From IMG/VR virus record IMGVR_UViG_3300009177_000030, positions 30,721 through 94,720 of that record: a stretch of 64,000 nt of DNA; one strand, given 5' to 3'. The notes under the pieces are model-generated. The model ran no database searches and had not been told where the DNA came from. It worked only from the letters and a program-made list of their open reading frames with translations. The position numbers and the translations under genes were made by a program. The stretch comes from a virus. Numbering within the stretch: the first letter of the stretch is position 1; each line of letters opens with the position of its first letter. Shown here piece by piece: positions 42,090 through 48,976 of the stretch.

Positions 42090-42118
42090 TTGACATCGTA
42101 TGTGGGTATCTGTATACT
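42090..42118 (+). promoter_or_regulatory. Near-consensus sigma70 promoter
   Basis: TTGACA (42090-42095), 17 bases, TATACT (42113-42118). The ATG at 42127 is eight bases further on with no Shine-Dalgarno, so transcription would start at or just before the start codon. The best promoter in the window; drives the ABC/OmpA operon. Confidence 0.8.
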
Positions 42119-42126
42119 CGCTTTGT

Positions 42127-42291
42127 ATGCCAAACATCAACGTAAAAGATGACGTTCACAAGCGCCTTAAGCAATTGGCGCTAGACACCGGCGAAACCCT
42201 CTGCAACGTGGTCCATAACGCTTGCATGGACACACTATCGGCCGCCGAAAAGAAGGTCGCCGAAGTCAAGAAGAAGAGCACCCGCAAATGA
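42127..42291 (+). CDS. Ribbon-helix-helix regulator
   Basis: 54 aa from ATG 42127, probably leaderless. NINVKDDVHKRLKQLALDTGETL is a ribbon-helix-helix pattern (short strand, two helices, GETL turn), with a basic tail. As first gene behind a strong promoter it is likely an autoregulator of the operon. Confidence 0.7.
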   Translation: MPNINVKDDVHKRLKQLALDTGETLCNVVHNACMDTLSAAEKKVAEVKKKSTRK

Positions 42292-42878
42292 GCTGGCTCG
42301 CCCAAATTCAGGATCTAGTATTCGAGCCTGAAGAGATGAAGCCGACTCCGACAGCATCCGCAGCGCCAGCAACAACGACTGCATCGCCTGCATATGTTCC
42401 GTCGATTCCACCGGCTTGCGGGCCGATGGACGGATTTCTCGCCAAACTCCGCTCCAAACTTCAATCACCCGGATCGCCAGTAGAGAAGTTCGAAGCAACC
42501 CTGAACTCTTTAACTGCCATCGCGGACATCGGCACGCGGGTTACCGCGGCAGCCAGCGTTCTGAAGGCAACCGCTGGTATCGACGCCACTCAAATCAGGG
42601 CTGCGTACAATGACCGTCTGAACGCAATCGAGGTGCAGTGTGGTCAATTCAAGACGGCTCTCGACGGGCAACACCAGCAAGTGGAGCAGATGACGGCTGA
42701 TATCGATGCGAAGAACCGTGATATCCAAGCACTAACGCAACAGCGGGATTCGCTGAACGCGGATATCGCGTCTATACGAACGAAGATCGCGACAGCGCAG
42801 GCAGGTTTCGACAGCGCGGTCGCTACCGTTCGAAACGAAATTCAGGAAGCTATGAACAGATTGAAAGGGGTTCAGTAA
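42288..42878 (+). CDS. Coiled-coil protein
   Basis: 196 aa from ATG 42288 (ATGA). Pro/Ala/Thr-rich linker at about 14-45, then helical sequence; 105-196 is a long coiled coil (QVEQMTADIDAKNRDIQAL). No membrane helix. Probable structural partner of the next protein. Confidence 0.65.
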   Translation: MSWLAQIQDLVFEPEEMKPTPTASAAPATTTASPAYVPSIPPACGPMDGFLAKLRSKLQSPGSPVEKFEATLNSLTAIADIGTRVTAAASVLKATAGIDATQIRAAYNDRLNAIEVQCGQFKTALDGQHQQVEQMTADIDAKNRDIQALTQQRDSLNADIASIRTKIATAQAGFDSAVATVRNEIQEAMNRLKGVQ

Positions 42879-43861
42879 TGGAAACGGCAACACACGGATA
42901 TTTTTCAGGCCCGGAAGGCAAGGTTAACGCTACGACGTGGGGAGCACTCGGGCTCGGGCTCGCGGTCGTTATTTACTTGATGGGTGGATCGGTCGGCGAA
43001 TATCTTGTCAACGCGGCCGACAACACGATGCACCTCGTTATCGTGGGGTGTGCGCTGGCGTTTGTTCTGGCTGCGCTCATGGACCCGAAGAAACGGCTCT
43101 GGTACGTCTACCGCGGCATTGTCCGCTGGCTGATGAGTTTCTGGATCGAACTTGATCCGATCGGTATCCGCAAGTCCTACGTGGAGCGTCTGAAGGCCAA
43201 GCAGGAGAAGTTCATCGAAGCCGTTGGTACTCTGCGCGGTCAGTTGATCGGCATGAAGCGGGACGCCGCCGGGAATCAGATGGAACTGGAACGGCATGAG
43301 GCGCTATTCAAAGAGGCTATGAAGGTCGGCGATCAGCGGGCGCAGGTCTCCAACAGTAAAGACATGCAGCGCTGCCAGATACTGGCCAAGCAATACGCCG
43401 GCGGGATTGAAAATCTGACCAAGATGCAGACCGTTGTGGTTCGGTACCAGGAGATCTGCGCTGACGAGATAGCCGACAAGGAATCTGACATCGTATTCCG
43501 CCAGAAGCAGTTGAAGTTGTCGAAGGCGACCGGCAGTATCAGCGGGGCTATCAAAGGCATCCTCAGCGGGCTTCCCGAGAAGGATCTGTACGACGAAGCC
43601 GGAAACGTTCTGGACGCGATGTACGATCAGACGCTCGGCGAGTTCGACAATGCCTTGGACATCACGAAGGATGTTCTGAGTAACGCCAATTTGGCCGACA
43701 GTGCGGCTCTTCAGGCTGCACTATCCAGATTCGAAAACAACAATTCAAAAGTTCTGGTAGGGAAGACAACGAAAGAAGAAATTCTTCGTCAGATTCCGGC
43801 GGCAATTCCGGCCCCACGGGCGACTACGTCGACATCCACGGACTACTCCGACCTGCTGTAG
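42878..43861 (+). CDS. Two-helix membrane protein with long coiled coil
   Basis: 327 aa (TAATG overlap). Two membrane helices at about 22-37 and 50-68, then a cytoplasmic helical/coiled-coil part with a PspA/Toxic-anion-like look and an Ala/Pro/Thr-rich tail. Lies between the coiled-coil protein and the substrate-binding/OmpA fusion, so it may tie the complex to the inner membrane. Confidence 0.7.
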   Translation: METATHGYFSGPEGKVNATTWGALGLGLAVVIYLMGGSVGEYLVNAADNTMHLVIVGCALAFVLAALMDPKKRLWYVYRGIVRWLMSFWIELDPIGIRKSYVERLKAKQEKFIEAVGTLRGQLIGMKRDAAGNQMELERHEALFKEAMKVGDQRAQVSNSKDMQRCQILAKQYAGGIENLTKMQTVVVRYQEICADEIADKESDIVFRQKQLKLSKATGSISGAIKGILSGLPEKDLYDEAGNVLDAMYDQTLGEFDNALDITKDVLSNANLADSAALQAALSRFENNNSKVLVGKTTKEEILRQIPAAIPAPRATTSTSTDYSDLL

Positions 43862-43903
43862 TAGTCACTTTTTAACTAGAATTTTGAGGAGATGAGGAAA
43901 ACT

Positions 43904-45694
43904 ATGTCAAAAATTAAAACGGCACCGAAATTGGTAATTGGGCTGGCCCTGATCGTGGGCGGCTTGCTGGAATTGAAGCATCTCGTTTACGTTGGAGTGA
44001 TCCCGCGGCCTAGCGCCATGAAGACGGTAATTCCGATCAAGGCGGAAGAATTGAGCGCTACGGTTTTATCCGGTGGAACGGTGGCAGCGAAGCCACTGCC
44101 AACCGCCACTCCCATGCAGGTTTGCATGGACGGAAACACCAGTAACTGCGTCAATTCCACGCCCGTGGAAATGGAAACATGGGCATGGAACGGGAACATT
44201 GGATTGCTGTACTCTATCGGGGGTCCGCAGACCACCAAGGGTTCTATCACGGCCTCACATGGACTGATGGTCAGCACAAGGCGGCAAGACGACACCGGCC
44301 AGATGAACAACGACTTACTGGACACAGCCCAAAAACTTCAATCTGATCCAAATGCGCCGGGCGTCAAGCTCATCACCATCATGGGCGATGGAGCAGCGGC
44401 TGAACTTGCCGCAATTAACCCGAAACTCCAGAAGGTTTGTCCGGATTGCGGGCTGAAGGTGGTTGGCGTCATGGGCTACTCCCGGGGTGAGGATGTTTTC
44501 ATGGGGCCTGCCGATTGGAAGGCAGACCCGCAGAAATCCCGCGGTGGCCTGGTGATCGGGGTATTGCGCGACGGCGACTGGAATATAGCGCTGAAATGGC
44601 TTGGCCAAAACGGCATCCCAAACAACCCGGACGACACCTCCTACGATCCGAGCGCTCTCAACTGGATCAATTCCGATTCCTACACTAAGGCCGCAGGCGA
44701 CTTTGCTACCGGGAATGCCTGCGTGGATATTCCCGTAAAAGGCAAACTGGGCGGAGCAAAGGTGCATAAATGCGCTGACGCTGTGGTCACGTGGACACCT
44801 GGCGACGTTACCGTGGCGAAGAAGCGGGGCGGTGTAGTGCCGATTGCATCGACGGCTCAATACGTATTCCAGATGCCGTGCGTTATTCTCGGCATTGACC
44901 GGTGGATGAAGTCCCACCGCGGTGAAGTTCAGAATTTACTCGCGTCCGCATTCGAAGGTGCCGACCAGATCCGCTCCAATTCCGCCGCGCTGCAAAAGGC
45001 TGGCGAAATCTCCGCTAAAATATACAACGAGGAAAACGCGGACTACTGGGTCAAGTACTTCAAAGGGGTGACCGAACCCGATGCTCAGGGAATCCGGGTA
45101 CACCTCGGAGGAAGCGCGGTCGCCAACCTTGCCGATAACCTCCAAGCGTTCGGACTCAACGGTGGACCTTCGCTGTTCGCCGCAACGTACACGACATTCG
45201 GCAAGATCGTAGTCCAGCAGTATCCGCGACTGGTGCCGAGTTTCCCAACGGCCGAAGGTATTGTGGACACGTCATATTTGGCTGCACTTAAGGGGACGAT
45301 GACCGCGCCGGCAGAAGACATCATCAAGGCGTCTACGGCTCCGATGAAATCGATTGCCGGGAAGCGTAACTACAGTATTCAGTTTGCCGTGGGCAGTGCC
45401 CAACCACTCTCATCGTCCTACGCTGACTTGGAGCAACTTGCCGCCGATATCAGTCTGACAAACTACATCGTTGCGTTGCATTCTCACACAGACAACACGG
45501 GAAGCGCCGAAGCCAATATGGATTTGAGTCAACGCCGTGGCGATAGCGTGGCCGCATATCTGAAGCAAAAGGGCGTCCGGAATACGATACGAAGCTATGC
45601 TCATGGTTCTGAAGAGCCGTTGCCTGGCAACGATCCCAATTCCGTGGCTGGCCGCGCTAAGAATCGCAGAGTTCAGGTAGTTTTAGGAGAATAA
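43904..45694 (+). CDS. Substrate-binding protein fused to an OmpA-like domain
   Basis: 596 aa from ATG 43904, chosen for GAGG six bases upstream; ATG 43892 is too close to its own. N-terminal anchor (LVIGLALIVGGLLELK). About 60-455: periplasmic binding protein of the NMT1/SsuA type (two-lobe alpha/beta; GLVIGVLRDGDWNIAL). About 485-596: OmpA/MotB peptidoglycan-binding domain (ALHSHTDNTGSAEANMDLS, QRRGDSVAAYL, GRAKNRRVQV). Such an anchored receptor would hold the ABC importer to the cell wall. Ligand unknown; Cys pairs (CMDG, CVNS, CPDC) may be disulphides. Confidence 0.85.
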   Translation: MSKIKTAPKLVIGLALIVGGLLELKHLVYVGVIPRPSAMKTVIPIKAEELSATVLSGGTVAAKPLPTATPMQVCMDGNTSNCVNSTPVEMETWAWNGNIGLLYSIGGPQTTKGSITASHGLMVSTRRQDDTGQMNNDLLDTAQKLQSDPNAPGVKLITIMGDGAAAELAAINPKLQKVCPDCGLKVVGVMGYSRGEDVFMGPADWKADPQKSRGGLVIGVLRDGDWNIALKWLGQNGIPNNPDDTSYDPSALNWINSDSYTKAAGDFATGNACVDIPVKGKLGGAKVHKCADAVVTWTPGDVTVAKKRGGVVPIASTAQYVFQMPCVILGIDRWMKSHRGEVQNLLASAFEGADQIRSNSAALQKAGEISAKIYNEENADYWVKYFKGVTEPDAQGIRVHLGGSAVANLADNLQAFGLNGGPSLFAATYTTFGKIVVQQYPRLVPSFPTAEGIVDTSYLAALKGTMTAPAEDIIKASTAPMKSIAGKRNYSIQFAVGSAQPLSSSYADLEQLAADISLTNYIVALHSHTDNTGSAEANMDLSQRRGDSVAAYLKQKGVRNTIRSYAHGSEEPLPGNDPNSVAGRAKNRRVQVVLGE

Positions 45695-45695
45695 T

Positions 45696-45902
45696 ATGGA
45701 AAAGCCACTCGCAATCAACGGCCCGATCATAATCAATCCGGCCAAGGTCCTTTGGGCCAACATCGAAGCCGTGCTTCCAAAAGGAACCGGCGTACAAATT
45801 CAGTTCGAAGGGCAGTCTGCTCCTTCTAACTTTTACGACGGGGATGCTGGCGCCGCAGCTTCTATCCTTGTCGCCTCATCTCAGGAGGCTCCGAATGCGT
45901 AA
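45696..45902 (+). CDS. Small hypothetical protein
   Basis: 68 aa, one base after the previous stop. Beta-rich, no signal peptide. Part of the operon; unrecognised. Confidence 0.55.
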   Translation: MEKPLAINGPIIINPAKVLWANIEAVLPKGTGVQIQFEGQSAPSNFYDGDAGAAASILVASSQEAPNA

Positions 45903-46395
45903 AGCAATTCTTTCTTTATTTGCTCTGGTATTGGCCGCCTGCGGTCCTGCCTACGTTCAGCCGGTTCAATCTGGATGGAACGGAGACCCCTGCGACCAGT
46001 CATACTTTGACGCCATGGCATGCCGGACCGCAATCGGTCTCGGAGGATGGTACCTGAATGGCGTGCTGGTTCCGCACTATTACGGCGGATATGGATACGA
46101 TCATTACTATCAAGCGAACCACGTCTACATCCTGCATGGCGGCCACGTGAATTCCTACAGCCAGTCCGTGAGAACGGTGCGTCCGGTCCAGCCTGCCAGT
46201 TCGGTGAATTCAGCATCGAAAGCCTATATTCCTCCATCACAACGCGCTCCCGCTGGATCTGCCGCATCGGCTTCGAAACCATACACTCCACCGAGCCGAC
46301 CGGCTAGCAGTTATAGTCCGCCGTCCAGACCTGCAAGCAGTTACAGTCCGCCGTCTCGGCCGTCCAGCAGTTACTCGTCGCCGAGGCGAAAGTGA
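45895..46395 (+). CDS. Lipoprotein with PPSRPASSYS repeats
   Basis: 166 aa from ATG 45895. Signal peptide with lipobox LAAC (Cys16). A Gly/Tyr/His-rich middle (VPHYYGGYGYDHYY) and a C-terminal tail of about three tandem PPSRPASSYS units. Predicted to sit in the outer (or inner) membrane facing the periplasm; the Pro/Ser tail could span to the cell wall. Confidence 0.75.
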   Translation: MRKAILSLFALVLAACGPAYVQPVQSGWNGDPCDQSYFDAMACRTAIGLGGWYLNGVLVPHYYGGYGYDHYYQANHVYILHGGHVNSYSQSVRTVRPVQPASSVNSASKAYIPPSQRAPAGSAASASKPYTPPSRPASSYSPPSRPASSYSPPSRPSSSYSSPRRK

Positions 46396-46592
46396 ACCGG
46401 GACACCTTATTCTCCCGCGGGATCACCATGGCTAACGTCGTGCTGATCCTGCTGGGAATCTGGTTATGCTATCTCGCGTTCTCATTCGTTCGCGTAGTCG
46501 CGTTCTGGATTCTTTTTCATGTGTTTGGGATTGCCGCATCCTTGGCGGCTATAGCGGTTGTGTTTTTCTGGTGGAAAGCAAAACGCAAATGA
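46392..46592 (+). CDS. Small membrane protein
   Basis: 66 aa from GTG 46392 (GTGA). Two close hydrophobic segments (VVLILLGIWLCYLAFSF and ILFHVFGIAASLAAIAVVFF) and a basic end. ATGA coupling to the permease. Confidence 0.65.
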   Translation: MNRDTLFSRGITMANVVLILLGIWLCYLAFSFVRVVAFWILFHVFGIAASLAAIAVVFFWWKAKRK

Positions 46593-47449
46593 TGGGCTTC
46601 TTGATCGCCGAATACGAAAAACGCCGGGATGCTGAGCACGGCCACGGTCCGATCCACGACCGCGAGCGATACCTGTCTCACTGGATAACGCCGAACGGAA
46701 GCCTGCATAATACCGGGTTTACAATCCTGCTCGCTACATGGATCGGACTGTTTCTGGTCGTGTGGGTCTCCGCCGGTGCCAGTTACCTGCCTTCCCCGTT
46801 TGAAGTTGTGCGGGCACTCCCTGGACTCTGGAATGAAGACGGATTGGGCGTTCAGATATGGACGAGCTTGGAACTTAATCTCGAGGCCGTAATTTTGACT
46901 TTCATCGCATCCCTGTTGATCGCTTACGCCACCGTGCTGCCACTATTCCGACCGCTGGCGACACTCGTATCATCAGGCAGGTTCAACGGGATGGTGGGGC
47001 TTCCGCTGGTTTTTCTGAGCCTCCTGCATAATCCGCACTGGGTGAAGGTCGCGCTCCTGGTATTCGGGACTGGCGTATTTATGGTCCTGTCTCTCGTGCG
47101 AATGATCGAGAATATCCCGACTGAGTTATTTGATCACTCAAGAACGCTCGGAATGTCGGAGTGGCGCGTGGCGTGGGAGGTTGTGGTGCTCGGCCAGTTC
47201 GATCAGGTGCTCGACATATTTCGCGGATCGGCAGCAATGACTTGGGTATTGCTCCCGATGGTGGAGGGATACTTCCGGTTTGAGGGCGGCGTCGGCACTC
47301 TGATGCTAACAGAAGCGAAGCATCTGAACCTGGATGCGGTCTTCGCCATCATGTTTGTTGTGCTGGCGATCGGATTTGCTCAGGACTGGATATTCGGGAA
47401 GGTGCGAAATTTGATATGTCCGTGGGCGGATTTGGGGGTGAGGAAATGA
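46589..47449 (+). CDS. ABC transporter permease (SsuC/TauC type)
   Basis: 286 aa from ATG 46589; ATG 46592 is equivalent. A soluble N-terminal part (about 1-40), then about six membrane helices. The cytoplasmic loop FDHSRTLGMSEWRVAWEVV matches the EAA coupling loop of importers of nitrate, sulfonate or taurine type, which the ATPase contacts. Half-transporter, so it would dimerise. Confidence 0.82.
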   Translation: MMGFLIAEYEKRRDAEHGHGPIHDRERYLSHWITPNGSLHNTGFTILLATWIGLFLVVWVSAGASYLPSPFEVVRALPGLWNEDGLGVQIWTSLELNLEAVILTFIASLLIAYATVLPLFRPLATLVSSGRFNGMVGLPLVFLSLLHNPHWVKVALLVFGTGVFMVLSLVRMIENIPTELFDHSRTLGMSEWRVAWEVVVLGQFDQVLDIFRGSAAMTWVLLPMVEGYFRFEGGVGTLMLTEAKHLNLDAVFAIMFVVLAIGFAQDWIFGKVRNLICPWADLGVRK

Positions 47450-47982
47450 TAGCTTTATTCATAGTCCTGGCTGCGGTTTTTATCGTGATTGTCGCCATTG
47501 CATCGCAGGAGAAATCTACCCGGAGCATCGACCTCACAAGCGTAAGGGACGCAATGGTAAGCAGACACGGATGGACACCCGAGAGGGCCGATGCCGCCCG
47601 GGGCGAATACCTGAAATTTCTAGCGATCCTCCGCAAGAAGCCAGATTTTCCAGTAGTTCCATGGCTAACCGACGGGAGGGACGATCTTGATCAATTTTGG
47701 CATCAGCACATTCTGGACACCGCCAAATACTCCCGAGACTGTCATTACCTGTTCGGAAAACTGGTCCATCACGATCCTCACTTAAAAAAAGGTTCGAAGG
47801 AAGAACTTTCGGCCGCGCAAAGGACACAGGCCGCTTACGTAGACTCTTGTGGTGGGGTCATTGAAGGCTCCGCCCCTGGACATCATTGCGATAGTTCCCA
47901 TAGCGACTCTTCTCACAGTTGCAGTACCCATAGTTGCTCAAGTCATAGTTGCGGCGGCCACGGATGTGGAGGCGGCCATTGA
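47446..47982 (+). CDS. GRDP-like membrane protein with His/Cys-rich tail
   Basis: 178 aa from ATG 47446 (ATGA). N-terminal membrane helix. DQFWHQHILDTAKYSRDCHYL is the DxxWHxHxL signature of the glycine-rich-domain protein family. The last 35 residues repeat SHSC/THSC/GHGC units with many His and Cys, a probable metal-binding tail. Its place between permease and ATPase suggests a metal-related accessory subunit. Confidence 0.7.
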   Translation: MIALFIVLAAVFIVIVAIASQEKSTRSIDLTSVRDAMVSRHGWTPERADAARGEYLKFLAILRKKPDFPVVPWLTDGRDDLDQFWHQHILDTAKYSRDCHYLFGKLVHHDPHLKKGSKEELSAAQRTQAAYVDSCGGVIEGSAPGHHCDSSHSDSSHSCSTHSCSSHSCGGHGCGGGH

Positions 47983-48800
47983 TAGCCACCCGTACCGATA
48001 CCCTGCTGTCCGTAGAGAAAGTCTGCCTATCCTACGGCGATAACGTTGTACTGCGCAATGTAAACCTACAGATCAATGATCTCGTGATTCCGGGACGCAT
48101 TACCGGCCAAATTGTCGGAATTCTAGGTCCCAGTGGCGTAGGTAAAACTTCACTTATCAGCATTATTGCCGGGCTACAGCGGCCGACTTCCGGGTCTGTT
48201 CTTATCGGGCGCGAGCAGTCTCCAGTACGCGCTGGAAACGTTGGTGTAGTGAGTCAGAACTACATCGTTTACCGGAACAAGGAAGTGATCGACAATTTAC
48301 TTGTGGCCGCAATGCAGGCAAAAGATAAGCCTGGCCGCAAAGAGGCACTGCAGCGCTCTGTCGACATGCTCAGCGATTTCGGGCTACTCGACAAAGCCCA
48401 CCTTTACCCGGCGCAACTATCTGGTGGCCAACGCCAGCGTGTGGCAATCGCTCAGCAGATTTTAGCCAGCGGCGATTTTCTTGTCTTCGACGAACCTACC
48501 GCCGGGCTGGACCCGGCTTCGAAGGACAAGACATGCGAACTGATTACGCGGTTGGCGCATCGCTCCGAAACCGAAACGATATTGATCGTTAGCCACGACA
48601 TCCCGTCTGTGGTCGCACTCTGCGACACTATCGTCCTGATGGGCCGATCCAAAGACCAGCCGGGCGCCAACGTGGCCGCTGAGTTGGACATGATCTCTCG
48701 TGGGTTGGTTCTAAATGGTGGCGGCGTACACAGTCTGCGCCGTAAACCTGAGTTCCGGGAGACCGTGGATGAGATTCAGGATATGTTTGCAACTTTATAA
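47979..48800 (+). CDS. ABC transporter ATPase (SsuB/TauB type)
   Basis: 273 aa from TTG 47979 (TTGA overlap). Walker A GPSGVGKTS (50-58), Q-loop Q93, signature LSGGQ (147-151), Walker B FLVFDE (167-172), H206 switch. All key residues present, so it should be active. With the permease and the SBP/OmpA fusion it completes a phage-encoded importer-type ABC system. Confidence 0.92.
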   Translation: MIATRTDTLLSVEKVCLSYGDNVVLRNVNLQINDLVIPGRITGQIVGILGPSGVGKTSLISIIAGLQRPTSGSVLIGREQSPVRAGNVGVVSQNYIVYRNKEVIDNLLVAAMQAKDKPGRKEALQRSVDMLSDFGLLDKAHLYPAQLSGGQRQRVAIAQQILASGDFLVFDEPTAGLDPASKDKTCELITRLAHRSETETILIVSHDIPSVVALCDTIVLMGRSKDQPGANVAAELDMISRGLVLNGGGVHSLRRKPEFRETVDEIQDMFATL

Positions 48801-48811
48801 AGGAGAAAGCC

Positions 48812-48976
48812 ATGAAAGTATTGAAGTGCAAGAAATGCGGCGACTGTGCTCATTGGGAAGTAATCCAGCGCGAGGGCGAAACGAGCCTGAAGAGCGTCAC
48901 ATGCAAGGGCGAGTATAAGGCCACCGTGACGGTTGACCCGCACGAGCATCTGCATTACGTGAAGCATGCGGAGTGA
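48812..48976 (+). CDS. 54-aa zinc-ribbon-like protein
   Basis: AAAGGAGAAAG before ATG 48812. CKKCGDC and a later Cys, plus HEHLHYVKH. Metal binding likely; role unknown. Confidence 0.6.
   Translation: MKVLKCKKCGDCAHWEVIQREGETSLKSVTCKGEYKATVTVDPHEHLHYVKHAE

Follow-up and report, generated by a model that had tools for sequence, protein, structure and literature searches.

The operon described here is carried by a phage and encodes, as judged from profile comparisons and structural models, a complete NitT/TauT-type ATP-binding cassette (ABC) importer set, alongside a membrane-anchored protein which is predicted to be a relative of PspA and the ESCRT-III proteins; the latter assignment is our main new finding. 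The operon lies in a window (the whole 64,000-base stretch of DNA analysed) that comprises bases 30721-94720 of the 94,720-base IMG/VR record IMGVR_UViG_3300009177_000030. Its five core genes encode, in order, a soluble coiled-coil protein (CC), the membrane coiled-coil protein (MCC) to which the new assignment applies, a substrate-binding protein fused to an OmpA-like domain, a permease and an ATPase. At roughly even odds (a probability of about 0.5), we interpret this set as a phage-borne envelope-maintenance machine in which ABC transport would be coupled to membrane scaffolding, and which would represent an envelope system of bacteria in reduced form.

Results

The original prediction, made from the DNA sequence, listed MCC as a membrane coiled-coil protein. 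Both the membrane anchor and the coiled coil are evident, as N-terminal transmembrane helices followed by a long helical hairpin (residues 94-229), but the generic identity requires correction to that of a PspA/ESCRT-III relative. In hhalign comparisons the MCC family profile matched bacterial PspA with an E value of 1.5e-6, and the window group alone with 8.2e-7, in an alignment centred on the 'DP' motif which opens the PspA hairpin; reversed profiles reached only E 0.4-0.5, and none of 30 heptad-block shuffles did better than 1.1e-3. The hairpin of the AlphaFold (AF2) model has a predicted local distance difference test score (pLDDT) above 90, and the first 19 matches in a fold search of the PDB with this model were all Vipp1, PspA, CHMP1B/IST1 or Asgard ESCRT-III, with Vipp1 (6zvs) superposing at 2.3 A over 131 residues. 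Together, the reversed and shuffled controls and the fold search rule out a generic coiled coil. A sequence search of the PDB with the MCC profile returned generic coiled coils only. Members from Lak megaphages are linked to the MCC family by profile (E 1.8e-39). MCC shares with the PspA/Vipp1/ESCRT-III superfamily the helical-hairpin fold and a DP/NP motif at the hairpin start, and differs in its N-terminal transmembrane hairpin, a Pfam score below the gathering threshold, and poorly modelled C-terminal helices.

Four MCC family members show weak CorA matches in Pfam, and a Lak-specific core family annotated as 'magnesium transporter K03284' (PMC8346664) may correspond to MCC. A bacterial membrane coiled-coil family encoded 3' of the ATPase (cluster 0) was considered as an MCC homologue and discarded, as profiles gave no support.

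The original prediction of a complete phage-borne, envelope-spanning importer is borne out, in that the ATPase, permease and binding protein all bear the predicted hallmarks of NitT/TauT-type components. Its statement that all ATPase motifs are intact holds for the window protein and extends to 51/51 viral homologues, each with Walker A, signature, Walker B, D-loop and H-loop; the catalytic residues are invariant in all 51, and one position, the signature Q, is M in two. The permease exceeds the Pfam cutoff for BPD_transp_1, and its profile matches in the PDB are CmpB and NrtB (E ~1e-6). An N-terminal transmembrane segment precedes the binding domain in 55 of 56 loci, PF00691 was found in 34/34 binding proteins, and the residues of the peptidoglycan site in the OmpA domain (T533, D534, N542, L545 and R549) are invariant. 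Foldseek matches to the AF2 model of the binding protein (pLDDT 86) comprised TauA, CmpA, NrtA and SsuA together with OmpA domains, with TauA at E 1e-9 and a TM-score of 0.74 on the target. By sequence, Pfam offers only a weak NMT1_2 hint for the binding domain and its ligand. As the cleft-type residues (W99, D133, G165-D166-G167, D227-G228-D229 and T300-D305) are strongly conserved, a ligand is probably still bound. Relative to TauABC, SsuABC, NrtABCD and CmpABCD, the permease, ATPase and binding-protein fold are alike, whereas the phage binding protein is fused to OmpA and membrane-anchored, and is accompanied by two coiled-coil partners.

Searches of IMG/VR with the binding protein and permease yielded 69 distinct viral contigs with the cassette, 12 of which are at least 200 kb long. 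When gene order was read with profiles of the five core proteins, CC, MCC, binding-protein/OmpA, permease and ATPase followed one another on one strand in all 56 contigs that hold all five, a repetition which argues that the cassette is not a product of chance; partial contigs, of which many are truncated at a contig end, carry consistent subsets. The same core order occurs in the 462-kb LR756500, in the 735-kb phage LR756501, and in the Lak megaphages MK250020 and MK250016, and is kept despite identities of ~30% among versions. A permease search of phage records found no match beyond LR756500, LR756501/LR756503 and the Lak genomes. Of the ten-gene set originally proposed, the five-gene core is therefore conserved, and the other five window genes are accessory.

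All ten genes are nevertheless present in the window, open and on a single strand, and the short-overlap coupling ascribed to them is apparent in successive gaps of -4, -1, +30, +1, -8, -4, -1, -4 and -4 bases. The near-consensus promoter is likewise in place, and is the best of six promoter-like matches in the region (shuffles average 4.3 matches of any quality). The features are as follows.

42090-42118, + strand: sigma-70-like promoter, TTGACA-17-TATACT, matching 11 of 12 consensus positions
42127-42291, + strand: small RHH/CopG-like regulator, 54 amino acids, accessory; weak Pfam match to RHH_5 (E 0.05)
42288-42878, + strand: core gene 1, soluble coiled-coil protein (CC), first in the fixed order
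42878-43861, + strand: core gene 2, predicted membrane-anchored PspA/ESCRT-III-like protein (MCC), assigned by hhalign and AF2 model
43892-45694, + strand: core gene 3, transmembrane anchor, NitT/TauT-type substrate-binding domain and OmpA-like domain (PF00691, E 4e-13)
45696-45902, + strand: small protein, 68 amino acids, accessory; no family match
45895-46395, + strand: Pro/Ser/Tyr-rich protein with a lipoprotein-like signal (hydrophobic N-terminus, then LAAC), accessory
46392-46592, + strand: small membrane protein, 66 amino acids, accessory; one predicted transmembrane segment
46592-47449, + strand: core gene 4, ABC permease (BPD_transp_1; NrtB/CmpB-like; PF00528, 27.8 bits against a cutoff of 26.4)
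47446-47982, + strand: membrane-anchored His/Cys-rich protein, GRDP-like (PF07173, E 0.03, below cutoff), with an N-terminal transmembrane segment, accessory
47979-48800, + strand: core gene 5, ABC ATPase with a TTG start at 47979 (PF00005, E 5e-25)
48812-48976, + strand: Zn-ribbon-like protein, 54 amino acids, probable further operon member; homologues adjoin the operon

The regulator ATG (42127) is only 9 bases 3' of the -10 box, such that its mRNA would be nearly leaderless, and core gene 3 may instead start at ATG 43904. The CC profile matches bacterial CC families that adjoin PspA and substrate-binding protein-OmpA genes (E 8e-10 and 2e-7). Among the accessory genes, clear relatives are confined to the regulator, the 66-amino-acid membrane protein and the 54-amino-acid gene, and come from close cousins: viral locus L002 encodes homologues of the regulator (45% identical, in the equivalent position) and of the membrane protein (56%). 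Neither the 68-amino-acid protein nor the lipoprotein-like protein has a homologue among the other viral loci. The Zn-ribbon-like gene begins 11 bases past the ATPase gene and has operon-adjacent relatives in L002 (67%) and L051 (41%), so that the operon probably exceeds ten genes.

The His/Cys-rich protein carries a C-terminal CSSHSCGGHGCGGGH tail, possibly metal-binding, and its only relative is a weak one (26%) near the cassette in L024/L025. In other phages, the gaps that hold accessory genes in the window are occupied by different small envelope genes. A small secreted, apparently beta-rich or beta-barrel-like protein occurs in 16 viral loci (L083:4355-4810 and 15 others), mostly between the binding protein and the permease; Pfam gives no match for it, and it could be an outer-membrane part. 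A membrane protein confined to viruses, with a C-terminal UVR-like motif, is encoded 3' of the ATPase in 27 viral loci (L016:13859-14767 and 26 others), often in tandem copies. Many phages have genes resembling homing endonucleases (GIY-YIG and HNH types, and a LAGLIDADG type recognised by eye) within or next to the cassette, for example at L003:11799-12548 and L008:11850-12518 (both on the - strand), and sometimes between the binding protein and permease.

The contig is that of a phage, and the operon is real, intact and internal to it. Matches to portal and major head proteins fall within the first 31 kb, and the operon, at 72.8-79.5 kb of the 94.7-kb contig, is placed between a methyltransferase and a polymerase gene in a region flanked by RecE-like exonuclease, helicase and polymerase/primase genes; virion and replication genes are both present on the contig that bears the operon. 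The GC fraction of the operon is 0.546, as compared with 0.549 and 0.555 in its flanks. A plasmid origin was rejected, since plasmid searches returned OmpA-domain matches only, with none covering 80% of the binding protein.

A scan of bacterial genomes yielded 385 binding-protein relatives that were confirmed, and the top 80 were retained for analysis. Acidobacteriota, Armatimonadota, Myxococcota and Bacteroidota account for most of these 80; the majority of loci encode binding protein, permease and ATPase in that order, and the genes nearby encode, among others, coiled-coil proteins, true PspA (PF04012, E 1.8e-16) and an AAA+ ATPase (PF00004, E 3.5e-20). In Acidobacteriota the order is CC, PspA, binding protein, permease, ATPase; PspA directly upstream of the binding protein, and preceded by CC, thereby holds the slot of MCC in phages. 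Ten bacterial loci encode the phage-type, transmembrane-anchored PspA-like version. The locus of a Xanthocytophaga flavus isolate is clearly chromosomal, judged by its neighbours. A membrane-anchored Ppx/GppA-like (actin/ASKHA-fold) protein is encoded there (L158:8799-9830), with the PspA-like gene on one side and the binding-protein gene on the other. In a quick tree, the phage proteins split into at least two groups, one of them near bacterial proteins, and phage L051 is nested in an Acidobacteriota group; several exchanges have therefore probably occurred, their number being uncertain given the long branches.

Discussion

A system of this kind is known from gene-context work in bacteria. 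Ravi et al. (2024) described bacterial operons of PspA/TM-Snf7, AAA+, ABC ATPase, permease and PBPB-OmpA, for which membrane remodelling linked to solute transport was proposed (PMC11237479). In phages and bacteria alike, a PspA/Snf7-type protein shares an operon with the ABC ATPase, permease and PBPB-OmpA protein. The phage version differs in that neither an AAA+ ATPase nor a second membrane coiled-coil protein was found, that its PspA-like protein has its own transmembrane anchor, and that it includes additional, phage-specific small envelope proteins. The system is accordingly not unique to phages, whereas an earlier report from viruses was not found among the open-licence full texts searched. 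The main text of PMC11237479 nowhere mentions phage genomes or bacteriophages; the main texts of papers on huge phages, Lak phages and mobilome ATPases make no mention of OmpA, PspA or ESCRT; and a literature search for phage-encoded ESCRT-III or PspA with an ABC transporter or a megaphage returned nothing relevant. A PspA-family protein does occur in Acinetobacter phage vB_AbaM_ME3, for which BFVD lists a lone PspA/IM30 protein. For the bacterial counterpart, the literature searched holds a published gene-context prediction and no experiment on the system. With respect to this literature, the AAA+-free, transmembrane-anchored form borne by phages, megaphages included, is thus new, as is the constancy of its gene order.

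The anatomy of the cassette, namely the genes it comprises, their constant order, the fold classes, the intact motifs and the phage location, is well supported, and from it we infer scaffolding, coupling of transporter to scaffold, and a benefit to the phage. In the envelope-maintenance machine that we favour, the importer (permease and ATPase) would work with a wall-pinned binding protein, tethered to the inner membrane by its transmembrane helix and to peptidoglycan by its OmpA domain. At these wall-pinned sites, the ESCRT-like MCC and its soluble CC partner might assemble into a scaffold that lines the host inner membrane on its cytoplasmic side, and occupancy of the binding protein, together with ATP hydrolysis, might drive or regulate this scaffold. 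A large phage genome would, as a result, be replicated in an infected cell whose membrane stays sealed and energised.

Several observations weigh against this interpretation. The AF2 model of MCC is moderate overall (pLDDT 70; predicted template-modelling score 0.45). The window MCC falls short of the Pfam PspA_IM30 gathering score, giving no match, and matches were obtained for 3 of 35 MCC relatives (best E 2e-4). A direct comparison of the huge-phage MCC subgroup with PspA gives no match (E 0.1), and the subgroup is tied to PspA solely via the window group (E 7.9e-9). Across the entire contig, window included, the bacterial AAA+ profile finds no partner; the AAA+ gene is likewise absent from many bacterial loci, and present in several beside PspA. 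Finally, gene order is the sole indication that transporter and scaffold are physically coupled. A more ambitious proposal, which we advance tentatively and consider doubtful, is that large phages possess an ATP-powered membrane-remodelling machine, whose ESCRT-III-type scaffold in the inner membrane, wall-pinned via the binding protein, reshapes or seals the envelope during infection. If true, this would constitute a viral ESCRT-III system acting in bacteria, with ABC ATPase energy in place of AAA+.

The cassette may instead be an auxiliary metabolic importer, by which the phage raises uptake of a limiting ligand of the taurine/sulfonate, nitrate/bicarbonate or thiamine-precursor class, and in which the coiled-coil proteins serve only to organise or anchor. 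The resemblance of the binding domain and permease to TauA, SsuA, NrtA/CmpA and NrtB/CmpB suits this possibility, as does the predicted retention of a ligand in the conserved cleft. We nonetheless regard it as rather unlikely, given that ordinary NitT/TauT importers lack the OmpA fusion and a PspA-like partner, that both coiled-coil genes accompany the transporter in all phage contigs with full coverage, and that the same set recurs across very different phage habitats and hosts, unlike what one limiting nutrient would predict.

Superinfection exclusion or envelope defence, whereby the complex would block or repair membrane damage from DNA injection by competing phages, appears less likely still. 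PspA proteins act in the envelope-stress response and reduce proton leakage (PMC11237479), and Al-Shayeb et al. suggested that membrane and surface proteins of huge phages may alter susceptibility to other phages (PMC7162821); defence cassettes, however, are usually variable and swapped, whereas the order seen here is conserved across very distant phages, and chromosomal homologues extend across many phyla. We consider it improbable that the cassette remodels membranes for phage replication or release, as a source of vesicles, by reshaping the inner membrane, or as a scaffold that times lysis: the ESCRT-III superfamily fold, anchoring to the wall through OmpA, and occurrence in Lak and 735-kb phages are compatible with such a function, but the same cassette in bacterial chromosomes points to a general envelope role. 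The concern accompanying the original prediction, that a host chromosomal cassette was misassembled at the edge of a viral contig, gains some substance from the frequency of the family in bacterial chromosomes (385 stretches encode relatives), yet is exceedingly improbable and, as a contig-edge or host-fragment artefact, ruled out by the internal position, the portal and major head genes, the polymerase/primase and helicase genes on either side, the even GC content, and recurrence on 69 viral contigs and in complete circular Lak genomes.

Conclusions

The genes of megaphages are mostly of unknown function, and we identify here a fixed five-gene module with recognisable parts which is common to many environmental phages as well as to Lak phages and a phage of 735 kb. 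The module suggests that large phages maintain or reshape the host envelope via ESCRT-III-type proteins coupled to transport, and its compact phage version could provide a tractable entry to both the phage and the bacterial systems.

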